Shown piece after piece: positions 5,563 through 55,343 of a stretch of 64,000 nt of DNA. This stretch comes from Amycolatopsis sp. FBCC-B4732. Lineage in GTDB: Bacteria > Actinomycetota > Actinomycetes > Mycobacteriales > Pseudonocardiaceae. The notes beneath the pieces are model-generated. The model made no database searches and was not told the DNA's origin. It worked only from the letters and a program-made list of their open reading frames with translations. The position numbers and the translations under genes were made by a program. Numbering within the stretch: position 1 is the stretch's first letter; each line of letters starts with the position of its first letter. The stretch is taken from contig NZ_CP095376.1 in NCBI RefSeq assembly GCF_023008405.1, forward strand, positions 8,102,501 to 8,166,500, read 5' to 3'.

Positions 5563-7049
5563 TGGGCCAGCCCGTCGCGCGTTCCGCCGAACCGCTCGCC
5601 GCGCAGTTCCAGACGAACCCGCCGCGCGAGGTCCCGACCCGGCGCAACACCGAGCTCGTCCTGCTGGGCTTCGCGGCGTTCATCGTCACGATCGCGCTGG
5701 TGCTCGTCGAGGCGAACCAGGAGCAGGAGCTCACCGCCTCGATCCTCTGGCTCGGGCTGGCCTACCTCGGCATCTTCGCCGCCGCGCACCTCGCCGTCCG
5801 CAAGTGGGCGCCGTACGCGGATCCGGTGCTGCTCCCCTGCGTCGCGCTGCTCAACGGCATCGGCCTGGTGATGATCCACCGGATCGACCTGGCGCTGGCC
5901 GAACGGGCCCTGCAGAACGGCAAGGACTACACGCCCGCCGTCACCGCGCAGGTCCTGTTCACGGTGATCTCGCTGGTGTTCTTCGTCGCCGTGCTGGTCG
6001 TGGTCAACGACCACCGCACCCTGACCCGCTACGGCTACACCGCGGGCCTGGTCGGGATCGTCGCGCTGGCGCTGCCCGCGCTGCTGCCGTCGAGCCTCTC
6101 CGAGGTCAACGGCGCCAAGGTGTGGCTGAAGCTGCCGTTCTTCTCGATCCAGCCGGGCGAGTTCGCGAAGATCCTGCTGATGGTCTTCTTCGCTTCGTTC
6201 CTGGTGTCGAAGCGGGACCTGTTCATGGTGGCGGGAAAGCGGCTCGTCGGCGTCGAGCTGCCGCGCGCCCGCGACCTCGGCCCGATCCTCATCGCCGCGT
6301 TCGTCTGCATCGGCATCCTGGTGTTCGAGAAGGACCTCGGCACCTCGCTGCTGTTCTTCAGCGTCATCCTCGTGATGCTGTACGTCGCGACCGAGCGGGC
6401 CATCTGGGTCGTCCTCGGCCTGAGCTTCTTCGCGGTCGGCTGCGTCATCGCCTACAACCTCTTCGGGCACGTCCAGCAGCGCGTCGCGAACTGGCTGGAC
6501 CCGCTGGCCACCTACGACGAGGCGGGCGGCGGTTACCAGCTCGCCCAAGGCCTGTTCGGGCTCGGCACCGGCGGCGTCGGCGGCACCGGGCTCGGCGCCG
6601 GCCGGCCGGACATGGTGCCCGAGGCCAACACCGACTTCATCACCGCGTCGATCGGCGAAGAGCTCGGCTTCATCGGGCTGGCCGCCGTCCTGATGCTGTA
6701 CTTGCTGGTCGCGATGCGCGGCATGCGCAGCGCGCTCGCGGTGCGCGACACGTTCGGCAAGCTGCTCGGCGGCGGGCTCGCGTTCACCATGGTCATGCAG
6801 ATCTTCGTCGTCGTCGGCGGGGTCACGAAACTCATCCCGGAGACCGGTATCACCGCGCCCTTCCTGTCCAAGGGCGGCTCGTCGCTGCTCGCGAACTACA
6901 TCCTGGTCGCGCTGCTGCTCCGGATCTCCGACGCCGCCCGCAAGCCGGCCGCCCGCCCGAAGCCGCAGCAGCAGCCCCAGGCGCCGATCGCGGAAGCGCA
7001 CACGGTGCTCGTGCAGCGCCCGCCGGCGGACGGGGGCGCGCAGGCATGA
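5562..7049 (+). CDS. rodA: peptidoglycan polymerase of the SEDS family, RodA
   Basis: A 495-residue polytopic membrane glycosyltransferase that polymerises lipid II for elongation. About twelve hydrophobic segments are visible. Family motifs include the WLKLPFFSIQPGEFAK stretch, FEKDLGTSLLFF and the C-terminal GITAPFLSKGGSSLLANY. It should work with the adjacent class B PBP (pbpA), whose start overlaps this stop by 4 bp. The C-terminal tail after the last helix is Pro/Gln/Ala-rich and probably cytoplasmic. FtsW is the only close alternative, but operon position favours RodA. Confidence 0.95.
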   Translation: MGQPVARSAEPLAAQFQTNPPREVPTRRNTELVLLGFAAFIVTIALVLVEANQEQELTASILWLGLAYLGIFAAAHLAVRKWAPYADPVLLPCVALLNGIGLVMIHRIDLALAERALQNGKDYTPAVTAQVLFTVISLVFFVAVLVVVNDHRTLTRYGYTAGLVGIVALALPALLPSSLSEVNGAKVWLKLPFFSIQPGEFAKILLMVFFASFLVSKRDLFMVAGKRLVGVELPRARDLGPILIAAFVCIGILVFEKDLGTSLLFFSVILVMLYVATERAIWVVLGLSFFAVGCVIAYNLFGHVQQRVANWLDPLATYDEAGGGYQLAQGLFGLGTGGVGGTGLGAGRPDMVPEANTDFITASIGEELGFIGLAAVLMLYLLVAMRGMRSALAVRDTFGKLLGGGLAFTMVMQIFVVVGGVTKLIPETGITAPFLSKGGSSLLANYILVALLLRISDAARKPAARPKPQQQPQAPIAEAHTVLVQRPPADGGAQA

Positions 7050-38179: not shown

Positions 38180-38222
38180 GTGGGCCTACCAGGACTTGAA
38201 CCTGGGACCTCTTCGTTATCAG
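38180..38222. repeat. attL: tRNA-Ile 3' half, 43-bp repeat
   Basis: Identical to 55269-55311. It covers the tRNA 3' end through the anticodon loop and then diverges. The tRNA 5' half is missing, so no functional tRNA is made here. Confidence 0.92.
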
Positions 38223-43329: not shown

Positions 43330-44226
43330 ATGACCACGACGAAGGCCTTCACGTCAGAGCGGACACAAGCCGTCTTCGAGTCAGCGTGTGCTTTCGCCGG
43401 GCTCGACGCGGCCGGTGCGAAGCGGGTTCGATTCGGGGAGAACGCCATCTTCCGCCTAGCGGATGGCTCGGCTGTGGTCCGCGTCGGACGCTCGATCCCC
43501 GCGGCAACGAAAGAGGTGCTCGTCGCCGGTTGGCTCGCGGAAAACTCGTTCCCAGCCGCCACATCGCTACGCGGCGCTGAACAGCCGTTCATCGAAGACG
43601 GGCTACCCGTCACGTTCTGGAACTGCCTCGAAGAGGACGACACCCCGATCAGGCCGGCGGAGTTCGGGAAGTTGCTCCACGACCTGCACGCACTCCCCCA
43701 TCCGACGGACTTTCGTCTGCCGCCGTTCTCCCCGATGCCAAAAGTTGAACCGCGCCTGCAAGCCCTGAAGGGCAAGCTCCCCGAGGCCGACCTTGACTTC
43801 CTGCGCGAGCGGTACGAGGAACTCTCCGAGAAGTTCCAAGATCTTGAGTTCCCGCTTCCCGACGGCCCCGTACACGGCGACGCGCACCCGGGGAACGTCA
43901 TGCGCGCCCCGGACGGGACGCTAAACCTGATCGACTTCGAGGACTTCGCCTACGGGCCACGAGAGTGGGACGCGGCCGTGCTTTCGGTCCGTCACCAGGC
44001 GTTCGGCTGGGCTTCCGAGGCCGAGTACGACTCGTACACCGAGGCGTACGGGTTCGACCCGATCAGCTGGGACGGGTTCCCCGTCGTCAGGGCTACCCGC
44101 GAGCTGAACATGACCATGTGGCTCTCGCAGACCGTCGACGAGTCCGCCGAAGTCAAGGCCGAGGTGGAGAAGCGAATCTCCGACTTACGCAACGATCAGG
44201 CGCCCCGCCACTGGAAGGTTTTCTGA
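43330..44226 (+). CDS. aminoglycoside-phosphotransferase-fold kinase
   Basis: A 298-residue kinase-like protein from ATG 43330 after GAGGAG. The N-lobe has FGENAIFRLADGSAVVRVGR. The catalytic loop GPVHGDAHPGNVMR and metal-binding LIDFEDFAYGPREWDAA are intact, so it should transfer phosphate. APH-fold enzymes act on antibiotics, choline, homoserine or nucleosides; the substrate is unknown. It converges on a large regulator gene with a 42-bp overlap at the 3' ends, which may link their expression. Confidence 0.87.
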   Translation: MTTTKAFTSERTQAVFESACAFAGLDAAGAKRVRFGENAIFRLADGSAVVRVGRSIPAATKEVLVAGWLAENSFPAATSLRGAEQPFIEDGLPVTFWNCLEEDDTPIRPAEFGKLLHDLHALPHPTDFRLPPFSPMPKVEPRLQALKGKLPEADLDFLRERYEELSEKFQDLEFPLPDGPVHGDAHPGNVMRAPDGTLNLIDFEDFAYGPREWDAAVLSVRHQAFGWASEAEYDSYTEAYGFDPISWDGFPVVRATRELNMTMWLSQTVDESAEVKAEVEKRISDLRNDQAPRHWKVF

Positions 44227-46804: not shown

Positions 46805-47593
46805 ATGGTAGGGCTCGACACGCCCACGAACACCCGAAGCGCGTACCCGCCTTCGGTCACCGACCTGCTGCCCCGTGTCCGCGAGTTCGCCGCGGACCTG
46901 GGCGAGTGCCCCTCCCGGAACCGGATCATGACCGAGTTCAAGGTGGGTGCGCCGAAAGCCCGCGCCATCCTCGCCGCGCTGAACGAGGAGACCGACACCA
47001 AGCCCGTGCGGAAGCTGCACGCGGTGACGGAACCCACCGAGGTCGAGGACCCCGATCCAGAGTCCCAGATCACCGACGAACCGGTTTCCGATGAGGCAGA
47101 GTCGCAGGTCAACGTCACCGCAGACCCGGGCGCGACGCCGGAGAAGGTGCGGCGGATCAAGCTGTGGCCGGTGCTCCTCCTGGCCCTGCCGGCGTTCGTC
47201 GCCGTCTGGAGCGGCTGGGTCGGTCTCGGCAGGCTGACCGGGTTCGGCCCGATCCAGCTCCTGCCGGGGATCTGGGACCACCTGACGATCAACTCGGCGA
47301 TCACGCTCCCGATCGGGGTCGAGACCTACGCGGCGTTCGCCCTGCGGGTCTGGCTGTCCCCGGCGACCCGGACCCACCGAGTTCGCAGCTTCGCGAAGTG
47401 GTCCGCCCTGGGCTCGCTCGTCCTCGGGATGGTCGGCCAGGTCGCCTATCACCTGATGTCCGCGGCGGACGTCGAACGCGCTCCCTGGCCGGTGACCACG
47501 CTCGTCTCCTGCCTGCCGGTGGTCGTCCTCGGCTGTGGCGCTGCCCTCGCACACCTCGTACGCGACACCACCGACCAGGGGGTGAACGACTGA
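46805..47593 (+). CDS. membrane protein of the transfer operon (SpdB/DUF2637-like)
   Basis: A 262-residue protein from ATG 46805 after AGGAG. Residues 1-110 are cytoplasmic, with a probable helix-turn-helix-like LPRVREFAADLGECPSRNRIMTEFKVGAPKARAIL and an acidic linker. Four hydrophobic segments follow, including LWPVLLLALPAFVAVWSGWVGLG and a last VVVLGCGAALAHLV. The layout is typical of SpdB2-like partners upstream of the AICE translocase. The stop overlaps the tra start by one base (TGATG). Confidence 0.75.
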   Translation: MVGLDTPTNTRSAYPPSVTDLLPRVREFAADLGECPSRNRIMTEFKVGAPKARAILAALNEETDTKPVRKLHAVTEPTEVEDPDPESQITDEPVSDEAESQVNVTADPGATPEKVRRIKLWPVLLLALPAFVAVWSGWVGLGRLTGFGPIQLLPGIWDHLTINSAITLPIGVETYAAFALRVWLSPATRTHRVRSFAKWSALGSLVLGMVGQVAYHLMSAADVERAPWPVTTLVSCLPVVVLGCGAALAHLVRDTTDQGVND

Positions 47594-49764
47594 TGAGCAC
47601 CACCAACGAACCGCACGGCGGCCGCGTGATCGCGTTCCCCAGCACGGCTCCCGCCGAGGCCGACCCGTTCGTCATCGACGCCGAGCCCGGCGACGAGGCC
47701 GCGGAGCAGTCGCCGGCCGCCCCGGTGGACCGCCCGGTCACGGACGGCTCGTCGTGGCTGGACCGCCTCCGCTCGCAGAACCGCCAGGCGATCATCCCCA
47801 GCTACCTCAAGTCGACAGCCGACGCGAAGGACGCCGCGAAGTGGGTGGGGAAGCACTACGCGCACAAGGCCGGCTACCACGCGGCCCGGTCACCGCTCTA
47901 CGCGCTCCGGCTCGCGGTGCGCTCCCCTCGCGGCCTTTTCCTACTGCTCGCGGCGACTAGCCGATACGTGACCGACGCTGAGGGGCGCCCGGCCCGCTCG
48001 GAGACGGCCACGGCCGACAAGGCCGATGTCTACCTGAAGCTGTCACAGCAGCGGGATCGGCGAGTCGTACTCCGGCTGATTCAGCTCGGTCTCGTGTCGA
48101 CGGTCGGCCTGGTTCTGGTGTTCACGCTGCCAAACGTCCTGCCGGAGTGGGTGATCTGGGCCTGCGGCGCCATCGCAGTTGGCCTGCTCGGAAAGCTCGG
48201 GTCCACCCGAGACAACCCGGTGGTGTCGTCTCGCGCCGTCCTGTCCACGCAGGTCCAAAAGCTCACCAGTGACAACGTCGTTCAGGCGCTGTCGGTGCTC
48301 GGCATCGCGGGCATCAACCAGGCCCTCACCAAGAACCCGAACGCGATCGGGTTCACGGCGCCAATCACCCGCGACGGCCCTGGTTGGCGCGCGGACGTCG
48401 ACCTTCCGCCAGGTGTCACGGTCTCCGAAGTGGTCGAGCGGCGTGCGAAACTCGCGTCCGGCCTCGGCCGTCCCCTCGGCTGCGTTTGGCCGGAGGGCAA
48501 CGCCGAGGTTCACCCCGGGCGGATGGTCCTGTGGGTCGGTGACCAGGACCTGTCCAAGTCGCGGCAGGCAGCTTGGCCGCTGCGGAAGCCCGGCACCGTG
48601 GACTTGTTCAAGCCGCAGCCGTTCGGCACCGACCAGCGCGGCCGGTGGGTGGACATCACGCTGATGTTCATCTCGATGGTCATCGGCGCGATCCCGCGGA
48701 TGGGCAAGACGTTCACGCTGCGAGAGCTGCTGCTGATCGCCGCGCTGGACCCGCGGGCCGAGCTGCACTCGTTCGACCTCAAGGGAACCGGCGACCTCTC
48801 GCCGCTGGCGCCGGTGTCGCACCGGTACCGCGCTGGCGACGAGCCGGAGGACATCGCATATGCCGTCACCGACCTGCGCGCGCTCGCCGGTGAGCTGCGG
48901 CGGCGCGCAAAGGTGATCCGGGAGCTGCCGAAGGACCTGTGCCCGGAGAACAAGGTCACGCCGGAGCTGGCCGACAAGAAGTCCCTCGGCCTGCACCCGA
49001 TCGTGATCGGCGTCGACGAGTGCCAGAAGTGGTTCGAGCACCCGGAGTACGGCGCGGAGATCGAGGAGGTCTGCACCGACCTCGTGAAGCGCGGCCCGGC
49101 GCTGGGCATCGTGATCATCCTGGCGACGCAGCGGCCGGACGCGAAGAGCATCCCGACGGCGATCAGCGACAACGCGGTGATGCGGTTCTGCCTCAAGGTC
49201 ACCGGCCAGCAGGCCAACGACATGGTCCTCGGGACCTCGTCGTACCGCAACGGCATCCGGGCCACGACGTTGTCCTTTCGGGACAAGGGCATCGGTTACC
49301 TGGCCGGCGAGGGCGACGAGCCGCGCATCACCCGCGGCGTGTACATCGACGGCCCGGACGCGGAGAAACTCGCGGCCCGCGCACGAACCGCGCGGCTGGC
49401 GGCCGGACGGCTGACTGGCTACGCCGCTGGCCTCGACCTCACGCCCGAAGAGGACGAGGACACGAGCACCCTGCTCGCCGACGTGCTGACCGCGATCGGC
49501 GACGCCGAGAAGGCGTGGTCGGAACGCATCGTCGACCGGCTCGCCGAGCTGCGGCCGGCGGTCTACGGCCCGTGGGCCGAGCTACCGACCGGCGCGGCGA
49601 AGGCAACCCAGCTCTCCACCGCGTTGAAGCCGCTCGGGATCACCACCAAGCAGGTGTGGGGCAACGACGCCGACACCGGCAAGGGCGCCAACCGGATGGG
49701 CGTCAAGCGCGAATGGATCGCCGACGCATTGACCGAGCGTGACCGGAACCGCAAGAGCGGCTAG
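47593..49764 (+). CDS. FtsK/SpoIIIE-type conjugative DNA translocase (TraSA-like)
   Basis: A 723-residue ATPase that would move double-stranded element DNA between hyphae or cells. A soluble N-terminus is followed by two transmembrane helices at about 158-195. The motor has Walker A GAIPRMGKTFTLREL (about 364-378), Walker B PIVIGVDECQKW (about 471-482) and ATQRPDAKSIPTAISDN, all typical of Tra proteins of AICEs. The C-terminus has a gamma-like winged-helix region (LKPLGITTKQVWGNDADTG) likely to bind the clt repeats. It is transcribed with the upstream membrane protein gene. Confidence 0.92.
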   Translation: MSTTNEPHGGRVIAFPSTAPAEADPFVIDAEPGDEAAEQSPAAPVDRPVTDGSSWLDRLRSQNRQAIIPSYLKSTADAKDAAKWVGKHYAHKAGYHAARSPLYALRLAVRSPRGLFLLLAATSRYVTDAEGRPARSETATADKADVYLKLSQQRDRRVVLRLIQLGLVSTVGLVLVFTLPNVLPEWVIWACGAIAVGLLGKLGSTRDNPVVSSRAVLSTQVQKLTSDNVVQALSVLGIAGINQALTKNPNAIGFTAPITRDGPGWRADVDLPPGVTVSEVVERRAKLASGLGRPLGCVWPEGNAEVHPGRMVLWVGDQDLSKSRQAAWPLRKPGTVDLFKPQPFGTDQRGRWVDITLMFISMVIGAIPRMGKTFTLRELLLIAALDPRAELHSFDLKGTGDLSPLAPVSHRYRAGDEPEDIAYAVTDLRALAGELRRRAKVIRELPKDLCPENKVTPELADKKSLGLHPIVIGVDECQKWFEHPEYGAEIEEVCTDLVKRGPALGIVIILATQRPDAKSIPTAISDNAVMRFCLKVTGQQANDMVLGTSSYRNGIRATTLSFRDKGIGYLAGEGDEPRITRGVYIDGPDAEKLAARARTARLAAGRLTGYAAGLDLTPEEDEDTSTLLADVLTAIGDAEKAWSERIVDRLAELRPAVYGPWAELPTGAAKATQLSTALKPLGITTKQVWGNDADTGKGANRMGVKREWIADALTERDRNRKSG

Positions 49765-49772
49765 CTCGCGCA

Positions 49773-49814
49773 GGGCTCTAGGTCTAGAGCCTCGTCCCTC
49801 TAGACCTAGAGCCC
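49773..49814. repeat. perfect 17-bp inverted repeat in a CTAG-rich stretch
   Basis: Arms GGGCTCTAGGTCTAGAG (49773-49789) and CTCTAGACCTAGAGCCC (49798-49814), loop 8 nt. Including the next 45 bp, the tetramer CTAG occurs seven times in under 100 bp. It starts 9 bp after the translocase stop. It lacks a T tract, so it may be a cis-acting transfer or replication site more than a terminator. Confidence 0.75.
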
Positions 49815-49902
49815 TCCCTAGACCACCACAACACCGCTGATCAGCGCCCTAGCACCTAGAGGCGCGGGCCGAGTGCGGCCAAAAACAGCCCCGGAGGCTC
49901 CG

Positions 49903-50187
49903 TTGAACCCCCTCAGCAACCCGACCGTCCTGCTCCTGCTCGTTCTCACAATCGTCACTCTCGGCTACTTATGGTCGTGCGCGGTCTACCCCTACAAGCC
50001 GTGCCGCTCCTGCCGGGGCTTCGGCAATTTCCGCTCGCCACTGCTCCGCGCGATCCGGCTCTGCCGCCGGTGCGACGGCACCGGTCGCACGCTCCGCGCC
50101 GGCCGCCGCGCCTACAACTCCTGCCTCCGCGCCCGCCGGTCGTACCGCGATCTCCGTGACCGCGACCGCCGCGACAACAACCGCTGA
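49903..50187 (+). CDS. small membrane protein with two DnaJ-like zinc motifs
   Basis: A 94-residue protein. TTG 49903 is preferred because GGAGG lies five bases upstream; GTG 49873 is the alternative. One N-terminal helix (LLLLVLTIVTLGYLWSC) precedes CRSCRGFGNF and CRRCDGTGRT, two CxxCxGxG repeats as in the DnaJ zinc-finger domain, which could bind one zinc. A basic Arg-rich tail follows. Proteins like this recur in actinobacterial conjugative elements; the role is unknown. Confidence 0.7.
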   Translation: MNPLSNPTVLLLLVLTIVTLGYLWSCAVYPYKPCRSCRGFGNFRSPLLRAIRLCRRCDGTGRTLRAGRRAYNSCLRARRSYRDLRDRDRRDNNR

Positions 50188-50214
50188 CGCGCAGCTCAAC
50201 CGAAAGGCCACCCC

Positions 50215-50745
50215 ATGAAGACCACATTGCTCGACCCCGAGCGTCAGTTCCTGGGCTGCGTGATGCAGGTCCGGCTGACAGGGGCCCGCCGGCTGCTCGC
50301 CGGCATGCGCGCCGACGACTTCGGCTCGCCGATCGCCGCCCGCGTTCTTCAGCTGGTCATCGAGCTGACCGGCGCCGGTCACGCACCGACACCCATGGCC
50401 GTGATGGACCACGCCCGCGAGCGGACAGCGACCGAACCGCGGTCCGGCGGCGCACAGCGCCTGCACAGCCTCGGCCTGTGGATCGTCGAGACCTACACCG
50501 ACGGCCCGATCCTGCCGCCGCCGTACTACGGCGCCTGGCTGAAAGCCGTCGTGCTCAAGAACGCCTACCGCCGCGCCGTCCGGGAGCACGCGGCCCGCCT
50601 GATGCAGACGGTCGAAGACGACTCACCGACCGACGTCCTCCGCTACCAACTCGACGACACCGAGCGCCTTGACGACTTATGGCAGCGCTACCGCGAAGCC
50701 GGAGGCGACGACGAACCGACCGCCCGCCTGGAGGTGGCCGCCTGA
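50215..50745 (+). CDS. DnaB N-terminal-domain-like protein
   Basis: A 176-residue protein from ATG 50215. Residues 5-65 (LDPERQFLGCVMQVRLTGARRLLAGMRADDFGSPIAARVLQLV) fit the helical N-terminal domain of DnaB helicase, without the RecA motor. The rest is helical with an acidic end. It overlaps the next gene's start by one base. It may act as a helicase loader or primase partner for the downstream ATPase. Confidence 0.65.
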   Translation: MKTTLLDPERQFLGCVMQVRLTGARRLLAGMRADDFGSPIAARVLQLVIELTGAGHAPTPMAVMDHARERTATEPRSGGAQRLHSLGLWIVETYTDGPILPPPYYGAWLKAVVLKNAYRRAVREHAARLMQTVEDDSPTDVLRYQLDDTERLDDLWQRYREAGGDDEPTARLEVAA

Positions 50746-52301
50746 TGTCCGGATTCGATGACGCCTTGTCCGTGATCGACTCCGTAATCTCCGACGAGCC
50801 GGCACCGAACTGCCAGCAGTGCGGCCGGCCGCACGGTGACTCGCCGTCCGGTGACTTCTGCTCGGAGAACTGCCAGCGCGTCTGGCGCGGCCGCCACATC
50901 GCGGCCAAGCCAGCGGAAGACGGCGGCGCCCACCCGAGCGAGCTGCCGGAGGCCGCGCCGGTCACGCCGCTCACCTGGCTCGGACCAGCGCCGGCCGAGG
51001 CCTTCGCGAAGCCTGGTCACGAGGTGCTCGACGCGGTCGTGACATTCGTGTCGCGGTTCTCCGCCTTCGCCAACGAGCACGCCGCGCCGACGCTCGCCCT
51101 CTGGTACGCCCATACCCACGTGGCCGAGCGGCTCTACGTCACCCCGCGCCTGATCCTCGACTCGGCGGAACCGGGGAGCGGCAAGACGCGCGTGCTGGAG
51201 GTCGCGCAGTACCTCGTCGCCAAGCCCGAGATGACCATCAGCATCACGCCGGCAGCGATCTTCCGCATGCTCGCCGACGGCCCGATGACGCTGCTGTTCG
51301 ACGAGATCGACGCAGTCTTCAACCCGAAAACGGGAGGGAACAACGAGGACCTCCGCGCCTTGCTGAACGCGGGCTACAAGCGGTCGGCCACGGTGACGCG
51401 GTGCGTCGGCGACGCCAAGAGCATGAACGTCACGCGGTTCCCGGTCTATGCGCCGGTCGCGCTCGCCGGGATCGCCGGCGGAATGCCGGACACGATCACC
51501 ACCCGGGCGATCACCGTGCACATGCGGAAACGACGCTTCGACGAGGCCGTAGAGGAGTTCATCGAGGAAGACGTCGAGCGGGAGGCAGCTCCCGTGCGCA
51601 CCGAGCTGGAAGCGTGGATCAGCCGAGTCGGTGACGAGGTCAGCCGCGCCCGGCCGGACCGGCCGGAAGGTGTACGCGACCGCGCGGCGGAGATTTGGCG
51701 TCCGCTGCTCGCCATCGCGGACGCGGCCGGCGGGCACTGGCCGCAAACAGCACGCAGGGCTTGCCATCACTTCGTGATCGAAGCCACCGCGCAGCCCGCC
51801 TCGACGGGGGTTCGACTGCTGGCCGACATCCGGCAGATCTTCACCGAGCAGAAGGCCGACCGGATGGTCACGGCCGAGCTGATCCGCGAGCTACATGCCA
51901 TCGAAGACGGGCCGTGGACCGACCTCCAGGGCAAACCGCTCGACAGCCGCCGCCTGGCGAAAGAACTGGACCGGTACCTGGTCCGACCGAAGGACCTGAA
52001 GGTCAGCGGCAAGACGCTCAAGGGCTACCGCATCGACGGCGACGGCGGCCTCGCCGACGCCTGGAGCCGCTACCTCCCACCGCCCGAAACGGACGCGACC
52101 TCCGCGACCAGCGCAACCCCGCAGGTCAACGCCACCTCGGCAACCGCGGAGCCGCCGAACTCGGCCGCGACCTCCGCAACCGGGGTCGCGGAAGGTCGCG
52201 GCACCCAACAGCCGCTCGCACCCGTGCTGACCAGCCCGGTCGCGGAGGTCGCGGACGTCGCGCCCGCCAAGCCCAACCACGCCACCGAGGGGGAGCGATG
52301 A
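50745..52301 (+). CDS. zinc-finger DUF3631 ATPase, probable replication protein
   Basis: A 518-residue protein. Residues 23-43 hold a CxxC...C...C zinc motif (Cys23, 26, 39, 43). A P-loop ATPase follows: Walker A SAEPGSGKTR (about 139-148), Walker B LLFDEIDAVF (about 183-192) and a sensor-like KRSATVTRC. The DUF3631 C-terminal region starts near 300. The last 90 residues are Ala/Thr/Ser repeats (ATSATSATP) of low complexity. DUF3631 is often fused to primase-polymerases; here the primase part is missing. It probably replaces Rep in this element. Confidence 0.8.
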   Translation: MSGFDDALSVIDSVISDEPAPNCQQCGRPHGDSPSGDFCSENCQRVWRGRHIAAKPAEDGGAHPSELPEAAPVTPLTWLGPAPAEAFAKPGHEVLDAVVTFVSRFSAFANEHAAPTLALWYAHTHVAERLYVTPRLILDSAEPGSGKTRVLEVAQYLVAKPEMTISITPAAIFRMLADGPMTLLFDEIDAVFNPKTGGNNEDLRALLNAGYKRSATVTRCVGDAKSMNVTRFPVYAPVALAGIAGGMPDTITTRAITVHMRKRRFDEAVEEFIEEDVEREAAPVRTELEAWISRVGDEVSRARPDRPEGVRDRAAEIWRPLLAIADAAGGHWPQTARRACHHFVIEATAQPASTGVRLLADIRQIFTEQKADRMVTAELIRELHAIEDGPWTDLQGKPLDSRRLAKELDRYLVRPKDLKVSGKTLKGYRIDGDGGLADAWSRYLPPPETDATSATSATPQVNATSATAEPPNSAATSATGVAEGRGTQQPLAPVLTSPVAEVADVAPAKPNHATEGER

Positions 52302-52528
52302 ACACCCCACCCATGCCGGTCGCAGTGCCTGAAAGGCACCTCTACCGGATCACCGAAGCGATGCGGCTGCTCTCGATGAGTCGCTCGGTCATCTACGAGC
52401 AGCTGCGCTCAGGCCGCCTGCGCTCGGTCAAGCAGGGACGCGCCAGGCTGGTGCCGGCCGTCGCCATCCAGGAATACGTCCAGTTGCTCATGAACGAAGC
52501 GGGGGTCAGCTATGACGAAACGGCGTAG
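52298..52528 (+). CDS. xis: excisionase (Xis), helix-turn-helix 17 type
   Basis: A 76-residue DNA-binding protein from ATG 52298, overlapping the upstream stop (ATGA) and the integrase start by 17 bp. The MerR-like winged helix is RHLYRITEAMRLLSMSRSVIYEQLRSGRLRSVKQGRARLVPAVAIQEYVQLL. Gene order rep-xis-int is that of pSAM2. It should bend the att DNA and promote excision. Confidence 0.9.
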   Translation: MNTPPMPVAVPERHLYRITEAMRLLSMSRSVIYEQLRSGRLRSVKQGRARLVPAVAIQEYVQLLMNEAGVSYDETA

Positions 52529-53669
52529 CCGCGGAGACGGCGGCATCCGCTGGTCGGAGAGCCGTCAGCGCTGGATCGCGGAGATCACGATCGGCTACAC
52601 GCCAACCGGAAAGCGGAAGGTCCGCTCCGCTTATGGCAAGACGAAGACCGAGGCGAAAGCCAAGCTCAAGGAGATGCTCCGCGAGCACGAGGACGGATTG
52701 CCCCCGGAGGACCGGTCTTTCACGGTGGCCGAGGCAGTGCGAGACTTCCTCACGCACGGTCTGCCCCGGCGATCGGCCTCGACTGTGGAGAAGCTGACAA
52801 TTCTCGCCGACACGCACATCATTCCGCTCCTCGGGCGCCGCAACGCCCGCGAGCTGACTGCGGATGAGGTCGATACCTGGCTTGCTGGGCGGGCAAAGGT
52901 CGTGTCGACGCGGACGCTGCAAGAGCTGTTGTCGCTGCTCCGGCGGTCGCTGGCCAGGGCGCAGAAGCGGGAGAAGATCAAGCGCAACGTCGCACTCCTC
53001 TGCGGGGTCCCGGAGGGGCGTGCGGGCCGGCCGTCGAAGTCACTGACGTTCGAGCAGGCCGAGGCGGTCCTTGCAGCCGCCGAGTTCACCTCGATGCGGG
53101 CCTACATCGTGGTGTCCCTGCTGACGGGAGCCCGGACCGAGGAGATGCGGGCGCTCACCTGGTCGCACACCGACCTGGAGGGCAGGCCGGACCTCAACCC
53201 GCCGATCCCTCCGCACGTCATGGTGTGGCGATCGGTGCGCGAAGGCGGCGACACAAAGACGGCGAAGTCGCGCCGCTCGCTCGCGCTTCCGAAGCGGTGC
53301 GTGGACGCTCTGCGGGCGCACCAGCAGAAGCAAGCGTTTGCGCGCAAGCTGGCCGGCGACAAGTGGGAGGAGAACGGGTTGGTGTTCGCGTCCGCGGTCG
53401 GCCGTGAGCTGGACGCGGCCAACGTCCGCCGAGCGTTCCGGCGAGTCCTCAAGAACGCTGGCATGACACCGACAGCGTGGACTCCGCGTGAATTGCGGCA
53501 CAGCTTTGTGTCCCTGCTCTCCGACAGCGGTATGGAGCTGGAGAAGATCTCACGCTTAGTGGGCCACAACGGCACTACCGTGACGGAGAAGGTCTATCGA
53601 CACCAGTTGCGACCCGTGATCCAGCACGGCGCCGAAGCGATGGACAGGATCTTCGGCGTATATAGCTAG
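52512..53669 (+). CDS. int: tyrosine recombinase (integrase) of the AICE
   Basis: A 385-residue site-specific recombinase. An N-terminal AP2-like arm-binding region (RWIAEITIGYTPTGKRKVRSAYGKTKTEA) and a SAM-like core-binding domain precede the catalytic domain. Catalytic residues: Arg208 (LLTGARTEEMRAL), RELRH with Arg329, His352 (LVGHNGTT) and nucleophile Tyr362. The first His of HxxR is Arg326, as I recall from other actinobacterial AICE integrases. It recombines attP with the tRNA-Ile 3' end and lies 1.6 kb from attR. Confidence 0.95.
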   Translation: MTKRRSRGDGGIRWSESRQRWIAEITIGYTPTGKRKVRSAYGKTKTEAKAKLKEMLREHEDGLPPEDRSFTVAEAVRDFLTHGLPRRSASTVEKLTILADTHIIPLLGRRNARELTADEVDTWLAGRAKVVSTRTLQELLSLLRRSLARAQKREKIKRNVALLCGVPEGRAGRPSKSLTFEQAEAVLAAAEFTSMRAYIVVSLLTGARTEEMRALTWSHTDLEGRPDLNPPIPPHVMVWRSVREGGDTKTAKSRRSLALPKRCVDALRAHQQKQAFARKLAGDKWEENGLVFASAVGRELDAANVRRAFRRVLKNAGMTPTAWTPRELRHSFVSLLSDSGMELEKISRLVGHNGTTVTEKVYRHQLRPVIQHGAEAMDRIFGVYS

Positions 53670-53693
53670 CCCGAACGAACTATGGCGCGGTTG

Positions 53694-53732
53694 AGTGGGG
53701 CTGACGGCATCGTCGATGCCGTCAGCCCCACT
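53694..53732. terminator. long hairpin after int, probable bidirectional terminator
   Basis: Perfect 17-bp arms (AGTGGGGCTGACGGCAT / ATGCCGTCAGCCCCACT) with a 5-nt loop, between int (plus) and the converging small membrane protein gene (minus). Confidence 0.8.
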
Positions 53733-53754
53733 CCATACACTCCAGCTGTCACCC

Positions 53755-54009
53755 TTAGTCGTGCAGCTTCCGCTTAGGGATGGCTCCGGACGACGACTGC
53801 TCGCCTCGTTCAGCGAGAGTGAAGATCACCTGCAGGATGATCACTAAGAGGGTGGCGACTGCAGCCCCGACCAGAACACGGTCCGAAGGCACCACGGCAC
53901 CCACAACGAACCCCGCGACCGCCGCTGCCACTGTGAGGGTCACTTGCCGAGCCCCTCTTTCGCGGAAAGCCCTGCTTAGGGCATCCTGGATCTGCCGGAA
54001 GATGTGCAT
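53755..54009 (-). CDS. small two-helix membrane protein
   Basis: An 84-residue protein from ATG 54009. An amphipathic start (MHIFRQIQDALSRAFRERGARQ) precedes two hydrophobic helices (VTLTVAAAVAGFVVGAVV and VLVGAAVATLLVIILQVIF) and a short hydrophilic tail. There is no family match I know. It is divergent from the HTH gene at 54225, which may control it. Confidence 0.65.
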   Translation of the reverse strand: MHIFRQIQDALSRAFRERGARQVTLTVAAAVAGFVVGAVVPSDRVLVGAAVATLLVIILQVIFTLAERGEQSSSGAIPKRKLHD

Positions 54010-54224
54010 CTTGTCCCACTTTCGGTGAGGCGTCTGCCTGACCCTGGTGGCTTGAGTGTCGAGCCCATCGCCACCGGGTCCGGCAGACGCTGCCCGGATA
54101 GTCCGTACGGATACGGTTCTACTCCTCTACATAAGTCCTGGTAAGAGCTATAGTTAAGGCAGGTACATTTAGGTGACATAGCATGGACATGGTGCTGACG
54201 CCGTCGACCACGAGGGGATCGATC

Positions 54225-54911
54225 ATGGCGAAGAAGCCTCTCGGAACACCGCTCGCGCCGGCGGGTCCTCAGTACGCCTTCTTCGCGAAGATGCAAAGCC
54301 TCGTTCTCGAGTACGGCGACCCGTCTCTCGCGGAAATCGCCCGTAACGTGCACGTTTCCCGTCAGGTACTCCACCGGGCCCTTCGCGGTCCCAACCTGCC
54401 GAGCCGCGCACTCGTTGTCCGTGTAGTCGACCTGCTCACCAGCCAAGACGAAGGCCGCCAGCAGCAGGTTAGGCAAGACGTACTTCGCCACTGGACAGAT
54501 GCCGTCCGGAATCATCGCCTAAAATTACAGACATCGGCCCAATTCGGCTTAGATCACGAAGCAGCTGCACCCGAGGGCAGTAGCGCCGATGTCGCCGAGG
54601 ACTCTCGCCAGGCGTTCGCTGAATCGCTACGTCACCTTCGCACTCAAGCTGGCTCACCTACGCTGGCAGAGATCAGCGGCGCCATGGACGGATACGGTCG
54701 GGTTGCCACTCCCTCATCTCTGAGCGACTGGTTGAACGGAAAATCAGTCCCTCGGGACCGAGCTATCGTGCAAACCTTGGTCAAGACGCTCTTGAGGTTG
54801 CCATATGGCCGTTCGCACGAGGCTGAGCCACAACTCTTAGAAGCAACCTTGACTGCGTGGGACAAGTCTCACGCAGTCTCATCGAGGCGCGGTAACGCCA
54901 AACCCAAGTGA
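54225..54911 (+). CDS. HTH-type regulator with two DNA-binding-like regions
   Basis: A 228-residue protein. ATG 54225 is favoured by AGGGG eight bases upstream; ATG 54183 is possible. The first helix-turn-helix-like region is DPSLAEIARNVHVSRQVLHRALRG. The second is SPTLAEISGAMDGYGRVATPSSLSDWLNGKSVP. The paired layout is unusual for XRE proteins. It may control the divergent membrane gene or int. It is the rightmost element gene. Confidence 0.7.
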   Translation: MAKKPLGTPLAPAGPQYAFFAKMQSLVLEYGDPSLAEIARNVHVSRQVLHRALRGPNLPSRALVVRVVDLLTSQDEGRQQQVRQDVLRHWTDAVRNHRLKLQTSAQFGLDHEAAAPEGSSADVAEDSRQAFAESLRHLRTQAGSPTLAEISGAMDGYGRVATPSSLSDWLNGKSVPRDRAIVQTLVKTLLRLPYGRSHEAEPQLLEATLTAWDKSHAVSSRRGNAKPK

Positions 54912-55193
54912 GCCTTGGATGAGGTTCCTCAAACCTGATCTGGCTCAGTGGCTCAAGCCCTCGCTGGGTCGTATACGGCTTGCCCACGTTGGCAAGGCCG
55001 AGGCCTATACCCGAATATCCGGGTTTCGCCGAGCTCTTCCGCACCGACCCAGGATCACCCTCGGTGACCCACTCGACCATGACACGATGACGCGGCCGAA
55101 CAAGCGATGCGTGTAGATGTCGGAAGCTAAAGAACATTGTTCGCGTTCGGAAGCGACAGCCCTGGCTCAGGGCAGGCCGCCCGCCGTTCGGGC
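54912..55193. other. non-coding right-end segment of the element
   Basis: No gene is supported between the last HTH gene and attR. Short open frames here show no ribosome site or recognisable segment. The terminal repeats, a terminator and attR follow. Confidence 0.5.
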
Positions 55194-55218
55194 CAGTTAG
55201 TCAGGCAGTTAGTCAGGC
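55194..55218 (+). repeat. 12-bp tandem repeat with GTCAGGC pair inside attR
   Basis: CAGTTAGTCAGG is repeated at 55194-55205 and 55206-55217. This gives GTCAGGC at 55200-55206 and 55212-55218, the same 12-bp spacing as the pair inside attL. These are candidate arm-type sites for integrase or excisionase. Confidence 0.6.
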
Positions 55219-55225
55219 AGGCGGC

Positions 55226-55261
55226 AAAAAGCCCGGCCCACCAGAGAGGTGAACCGGGCTT
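55226..55261 (-). terminator. element-borne terminator for tRNA-Ile
   Basis: On the minus strand AAGCCCGG...CCGGGCTTTTT forms a rho-independent terminator immediately after the tRNA 3' end. The element thus restores not only the tRNA 3' half but also its terminator. Confidence 0.75.
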
Positions 55262-55268
55262 GACCTGC

Positions 55269-55311
55269 GTGGGCCTACCAGGACTTGAACCTGGGACCTC
55301 TTCGTTATCAG
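55269..55311. repeat. attR: 43-bp repeat within intact tRNA-Ile
   Basis: Identical to attL at 38180-38222. It spans the tRNA-Ile 3' end to the anticodon loop. Recombination between the two would excise about 17.1 kb. Confidence 0.92.
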
Positions 55312-55343
55312 CGAAGCGCTCTAACCACCTGAGCTATAGGCCC
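55270..55343 (-). tRNA. tRNA-Ile (anticodon GAT)
   Basis: On the minus strand it begins GGGCCTATAGCTCAGGTGG; the acceptor partner TAGGCCC is followed by discriminator A. The anticodon loop CTGATAA gives GAT. The T arm CCAGGTTCAAGTCCTGG is canonical. The 3' half is supplied by the integrated element. It lies next to DUF3566 and gyrA as in other actinobacteria. Confidence 0.96.

Follow-up and report, generated by a model that had tools for sequence, protein, structure and literature searches.

The window analysed here, a stretch of 64,000 nucleotides from Amycolatopsis sp. FBCC-B4732, contains a mobile element of about 17.1 kb bounded by identical 43-bp repeats. The left att repeat (38180..38222) corresponds to the right-hand 43 bases of a direct repeat termed D1 and is identical to the right copy (55269..55311), which lies inside a tRNA-Ile gene on the minus strand (55269-55343) and forms its 3' end. 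The genes at 46805..53669 lie on the plus strand and begin with one of membrane type by eye (46805..47593), without a Pfam family above cut-off, followed by a FtsK/SpoIIIE-type Tra translocase (47593..49764; PHROG 1358, E 4.5e-24; PF01580 sub-threshold) whose start is taken as the ATG at 47593 in a frame open from 47164. A small DnaJ-like CxxCxGxG zinc protein (49873..50187) is encoded between tra and rep, and similar genes are located upstream of the rep gene in L173, L205 and aligned close relatives. Next come a 176-aa protein with a DnaB-N fold and no ATPase domain (50215..50745) and a 518-aa P-loop/AAA+ ATPase of the DUF3631 family (50745..52301, start ATG 50745), both as described in the original prediction. 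The two genes share a single base in a TGATG junction. They are followed by an HTH_17 excisionase, Xis (52298..52528), which overlaps the ATPase gene by four bases, and by a tyrosine integrase (52512..53669). A stretch of about 1.6 kb (53670-55268) that includes an HTH gene (54183-54911) separates int from the right att, as opposed to a gap of only about 100 bp in the related locus L045. The element also carries a cargo gene of the phosphotransferase family (43330-44226, PF01636). The order tra, small zinc ORF, DnaB-N, DUF3631, xis and int is AICE-like.

Just after tra lies a perfect 17-bp inverted repeat, GGGCTCTAGGTCTAGAG-N8-CTCTAGACCTAGAGCCC (49773..49814), which is composed of two 14-bp CTCTAGxxCTAGAG units with starts 22 bp apart. 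Pairs with this spacing occur in 23 of 155 loci of the same ATPase family, nine with a DnaB-N gene and 14 with a primase-polymerase (Prim-Pol) gene. Compared with the window, the other 22 pair-bearing loci encode Tra proteins that are 54-98% identical and ATPases that are only 34-93% identical. The fit with Tra is imperfect, since some loci with a Tra 54-67% identical to that of the window do not have the pair. An origin recognised by the ATPase is not the leading reading of these repeats, because the pair tracks Tra better; from its position and distribution the repeat is likelier to be a transfer site and is a candidate clt. In locus L138, a Tra 83% identical to that of the window is joined to an ATPase only 38% identical, which indicates that these elements are mosaics.

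The 518-aa protein matches PF12307 (DUF3631) with an E-value of 2.1e-62 and a score of 210.9 bits against a cut-off of 24. According to the main text of Ghinet et al. this is the profile that defines RepAM, which was first shown to be the replication initiator of pMEA300 from Amycolatopsis methanolica, an element for which autonomous replication has been reported (Ghinet et al. 2011, PMC3218068). The original prediction that no known AICE initiator is visible was thus mistaken, and judged by its sequence and gene context (neighbouring Tra, Xis and Int genes and flanking att repeats, of which the right-hand copy sits at tRNA-Ile), the module is a pMEA300/RepAM-type AICE replication module. The window lacks a Prim-Pol, and the scanned proteins of the element match no Pfam replication family apart from DUF3631 and, below threshold, DnaB. 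This would suit the new initiator or helicase-loading module that had been proposed, one without kinship to the AICE replication proteins already described; given the clear Rep match of one of the two proteins, with DUF3631 being the RepAM profile itself, this is barely credible. No RepSA-type family was found among the scanned element proteins, in a scan run without that study's own RepSA profile. The genome has a single Prim-Pol match (PF09250, AEP primase domain) and it lies outside the window, in agreement with the claim that the module has no primase-polymerase.

The window's RepAM has an N-terminal CxxC-CxxxC motif, a P-loop/AAA+ ATPase and a C-terminal winged-helix-like domain. The zinc motif was considered and rejected as a hallmark of the DnaB-N/RepAM pair, and a suspected homology between the C-termini of Tra and RepAM was discarded, the profile match being sub-threshold (E 0.0019) and BLASTP negative. 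The nearest named relatives of the window's RepAM come from Amycolatopsis, the genus of the pMEA300 host, and A. methanolica itself is not among the 80 named RepAM loci listed. DUF3631 matches are present in 26 of 80 genomes of the genus and in 141 of 390 genomes of the family (139 above cut-off, with eight first-look candidates scored per genome). DUF3631 elements are also recorded as plasmids, namely the 14.3-kb circular NZ_CP108973 and another of 13.5 kb; two phage records match RepAM, neither of which covers 80% of the query.

A DnaB-NTD fold is predicted with high confidence by structure modelling for the 176-aa protein, which stands alone and has no RecA-type motor. At the sequence level the similarity is low, with 13% identity to the top match and a PF00772 score of 15 bits, below the cut-off of 23, so that the assignment is limited to a DnaB-N fold rather than membership of PF00772. 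A PDB profile search with the DnaB-N alignment found 2r5u at E 0.14; a match to a designed repeat protein, 7rdr (E 8.7e-9), was treated as an effect of composition, no stretch passing on its own. Both the DnaB-N and RepAM genes are under purifying selection, with dN/dS values of 0.10-0.14 against four close relatives.

The upstream partner of RepAM was compared across 155 loci including the window, of which 82 encode Prim-Pol, 41 (the window among them) DnaB-N, none both and 32 neither. The loci comprise the window, 35 genus-level regions and 119 of 130 family-level regions centred on RepAM, the family-level loci being the highest-scoring among the PF12307 matches listed; the remaining 11 of the 130 are centred on DnaB-N and have no RepAM listed. 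Seven seeds from these loci were used for the Prim-Pol profile, one of them being checked against PF09250 (E 3.1e-44); this profile and that for DnaB-N were then widened with matches from the loci themselves, so that partners of strong divergence may have escaped notice in the 32 loci with neither, a number of which show obvious decay. The picture is the same in a second, partly overlapping collection of 80 named loci, with 31 Prim-Pol, 19 DnaB-N, none with both and 30 with neither, seven of the latter having less than 3 kb of upstream sequence. Five loci (L033, L037, L041, L042 and L057) have neither partner and instead encode a protein of about 115-130 aa upstream of RepAM, possibly a third kind of partner; that of L041 has no Pfam match.

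On a quick tree of 152 RepAM sequences, the partners require at least 19 switches over 122 labelled leaves, compared with 28-39 in 200 label shuffles, which implies that they are inherited in clusters yet have been exchanged repeatedly. The exchange is most apparent in the closest pair of loci, L043 and L044, which align over 10.8 kb (positions 6194 to 17001 of L043, with 4.1 kb at 90% and 6.2 kb at 93% identity) with the only interruption at the DnaB-N versus Prim-Pol gene; upstream of 6194 the two loci differ elsewhere too. Both are adjoined by tRNA-Tyr, and since the right block extends beyond the tRNA, part of it is probably chromosome. The junction of partner and RepAM reads GCCTGATG in both loci, the same TGATG junction as in the window. 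The one-base overlap highlighted by the original prediction is real and not peculiar to the pair, start/stop overlaps of -1 or -4 being found in 24 of 41 DnaB-N and 46 of 82 Prim-Pol loci. Taken together, it is well supported that DnaB-N stands in for the element's own primase in RepAM operons.

In the 390 family genomes, with eight first-look candidates scored in each, there are 52 DnaB-N places, 41 of which are on the same strand as RepAM and at most 6 kb upstream of it. For the other 11, the retrieved region contains no RepAM: a DUF3987 ATPase follows downstream in five and, by a partial match, in a sixth, two have uncharacterised P-loop proteins (motifs read by eye), and no clear partner was seen in three. 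In L224 DUF3987 is matched by the first 400 residues and not by the full ORF. Three RepAM loci with DnaB-N carry names from outside the Pseudonocardiaceae, one of which (L286) may equal L198 of the window's own family. At the level of the class, DnaB-N was found in six of 394 genomes including that of the window (eight first-look candidates scored per genome), one of them through a stop-containing frame and another as a short, weak match in a 486-aa frame. Stand-alone DnaB-N matches in mycobacterial and nocardial plasmids are weak, and no annotated ATPase lies within 5 kb of them in the two neighbourhoods inspected.

RepAM proteins have been predicted to initiate rolling-circle replication on the grounds of nick-like sites similar to those of pC194 plasmids (Ghinet et al. 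2011, PMC3218068), and DnaB-N might then aid lagging-strand conversion. The same text reports that RepAM has no similarity to known initiators, and an alignment of 152 RepAM sequences (from residue 52 on, residues 1-51 lying outside) speaks against such a role. Walker A K147 (148/152), Walker B D186-E187 (150/152) and Arg254 (152/152) are near invariant, in contrast to the sole His-x-His of the window protein (residues 123-125), where H123 is kept in 80 and H125 in 128 sequences; no histidine reaches 90% over the aligned region and no conserved HUH metal motif was found there, which weakens the published assumption. The structure model of RepAM is weak in the ATPase core; its nearest predicted neighbours by VIA are the MCM and RavA AAA+ proteins, with phage helicase/primase proteins also near, while Foldseek places ORC/Cdc6 on top with poor TM-scores. 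The RepAM alignment, searched as a profile against the PDB, gave one insignificant match, which is not a helicase. The conserved ATPase motifs, the unconserved His-x-His and the structural neighbours favour a helicase/initiator role over that of an HUH nickase, and a rolling-circle RepAM appears improbable.

Within DnaB, the DnaB-N fold is the docking site for the C-terminal domain of the DnaG primase. If RepAM unwinds DNA, the element needs priming, which Prim-Pol can supply in 82 loci and which DnaB-N would most economically supply by docking host DnaG. We infer such docking and propose, at about even chances of being right, that in this RepAM-type module a stand-alone DnaB-N replaces Prim-Pol: RepAM would assemble on the origin, act there as AAA+ helicase/initiator and unwind the excised circle, and host DnaG would dock on DnaB-N and so be brought to the RepAM fork, filling in for the absent Prim-Pol. 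The main rival to DnaG docking is docking on host DnaB, whose N-terminal collar is contacted by another DnaB-N or by the DnaG C-terminal domain; DnaB-N would then recruit host DnaB, with RepAM acting as an origin-binding AAA+ loader and the host DnaB-DnaG primosome providing the priming. This is rather unlikely, as RepAM is shared with Prim-Pol elements and has motor helicases as its nearest VIA neighbours, so that a second helicase would be superfluous. Being stand-alone and motorless, DnaB-N might also be no replication partner and instead inhibit the host replisome or act as a decoy for it, so that the element replicates in preference to the chromosome. Such a role leaves the exchange with Prim-Pol in the same coupled slot unexplained and seems distinctly improbable.

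DnaG docking at the RepAM fork can be extended, more tentatively and with somewhat less than an even chance, to a general principle in which the DnaB collar serves as a 'primase magnet'. Elements would repeatedly give up the primase they encode and take on a detached collar instead, which would hijack host DnaG for an unrelated AAA+ or P-loop helicase, be it RepAM or DUF3987, so that priming becomes a plug-in module, RepAM a helicase and RepAM AICEs replicons without HUH rolling-circle replication. If true, the DnaG-docking domain of DnaB can function detached from its motor. The mechanism of RepAM in print is a prediction only (PMC3218068), and the natural swap of primase and DnaB collar in close relatives renders it directly testable, since one set of elements is predicted to depend on host DnaG and the other to do without it.

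The window's module resembles the published modules of the RepAM/pMEA300 type in having a PF12307 protein in a tra-rep-xis-int element and differs in the partner upstream of RepAM, which is DnaB-N rather than Prim-Pol. In the published modules, Prim-Pol is an occasional neighbour, with repAM immediately adjacent in 12 AICEs, and the word 'DnaB' does not occur in the main text (PMC3218068). RepAM and its pairing with Prim-Pol are hence known already, while the motorless DnaB-N at the rep position is, as originally suspected, unusual as an alternative partner, and no report of the pair was found among the best matches in the openly licensed literature. The RepAM plasmid NZ_CP108973 has the order tra, small ORF, partner, DUF3631, HTH and int, with the partner in the same slot as in the window; there it is a primase-polymerase instead of a DnaB-N domain and is separated from DUF3631 by one extra ORF. 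Unlike the N-terminal collar of a replicative DnaB helicase, the window protein is detached from any RecA-type motor and sub-threshold to its Pfam profile. The pair can further be likened to the primase-helicase operon of SCCmec, where the helicase initiator Cch2 has a dedicated priming partner, CCPol-MP; there CCPol-MP itself primes, whereas the partner in the window has no catalytic domain and would borrow the primase of its host (eLife 2020, PMC7581432).
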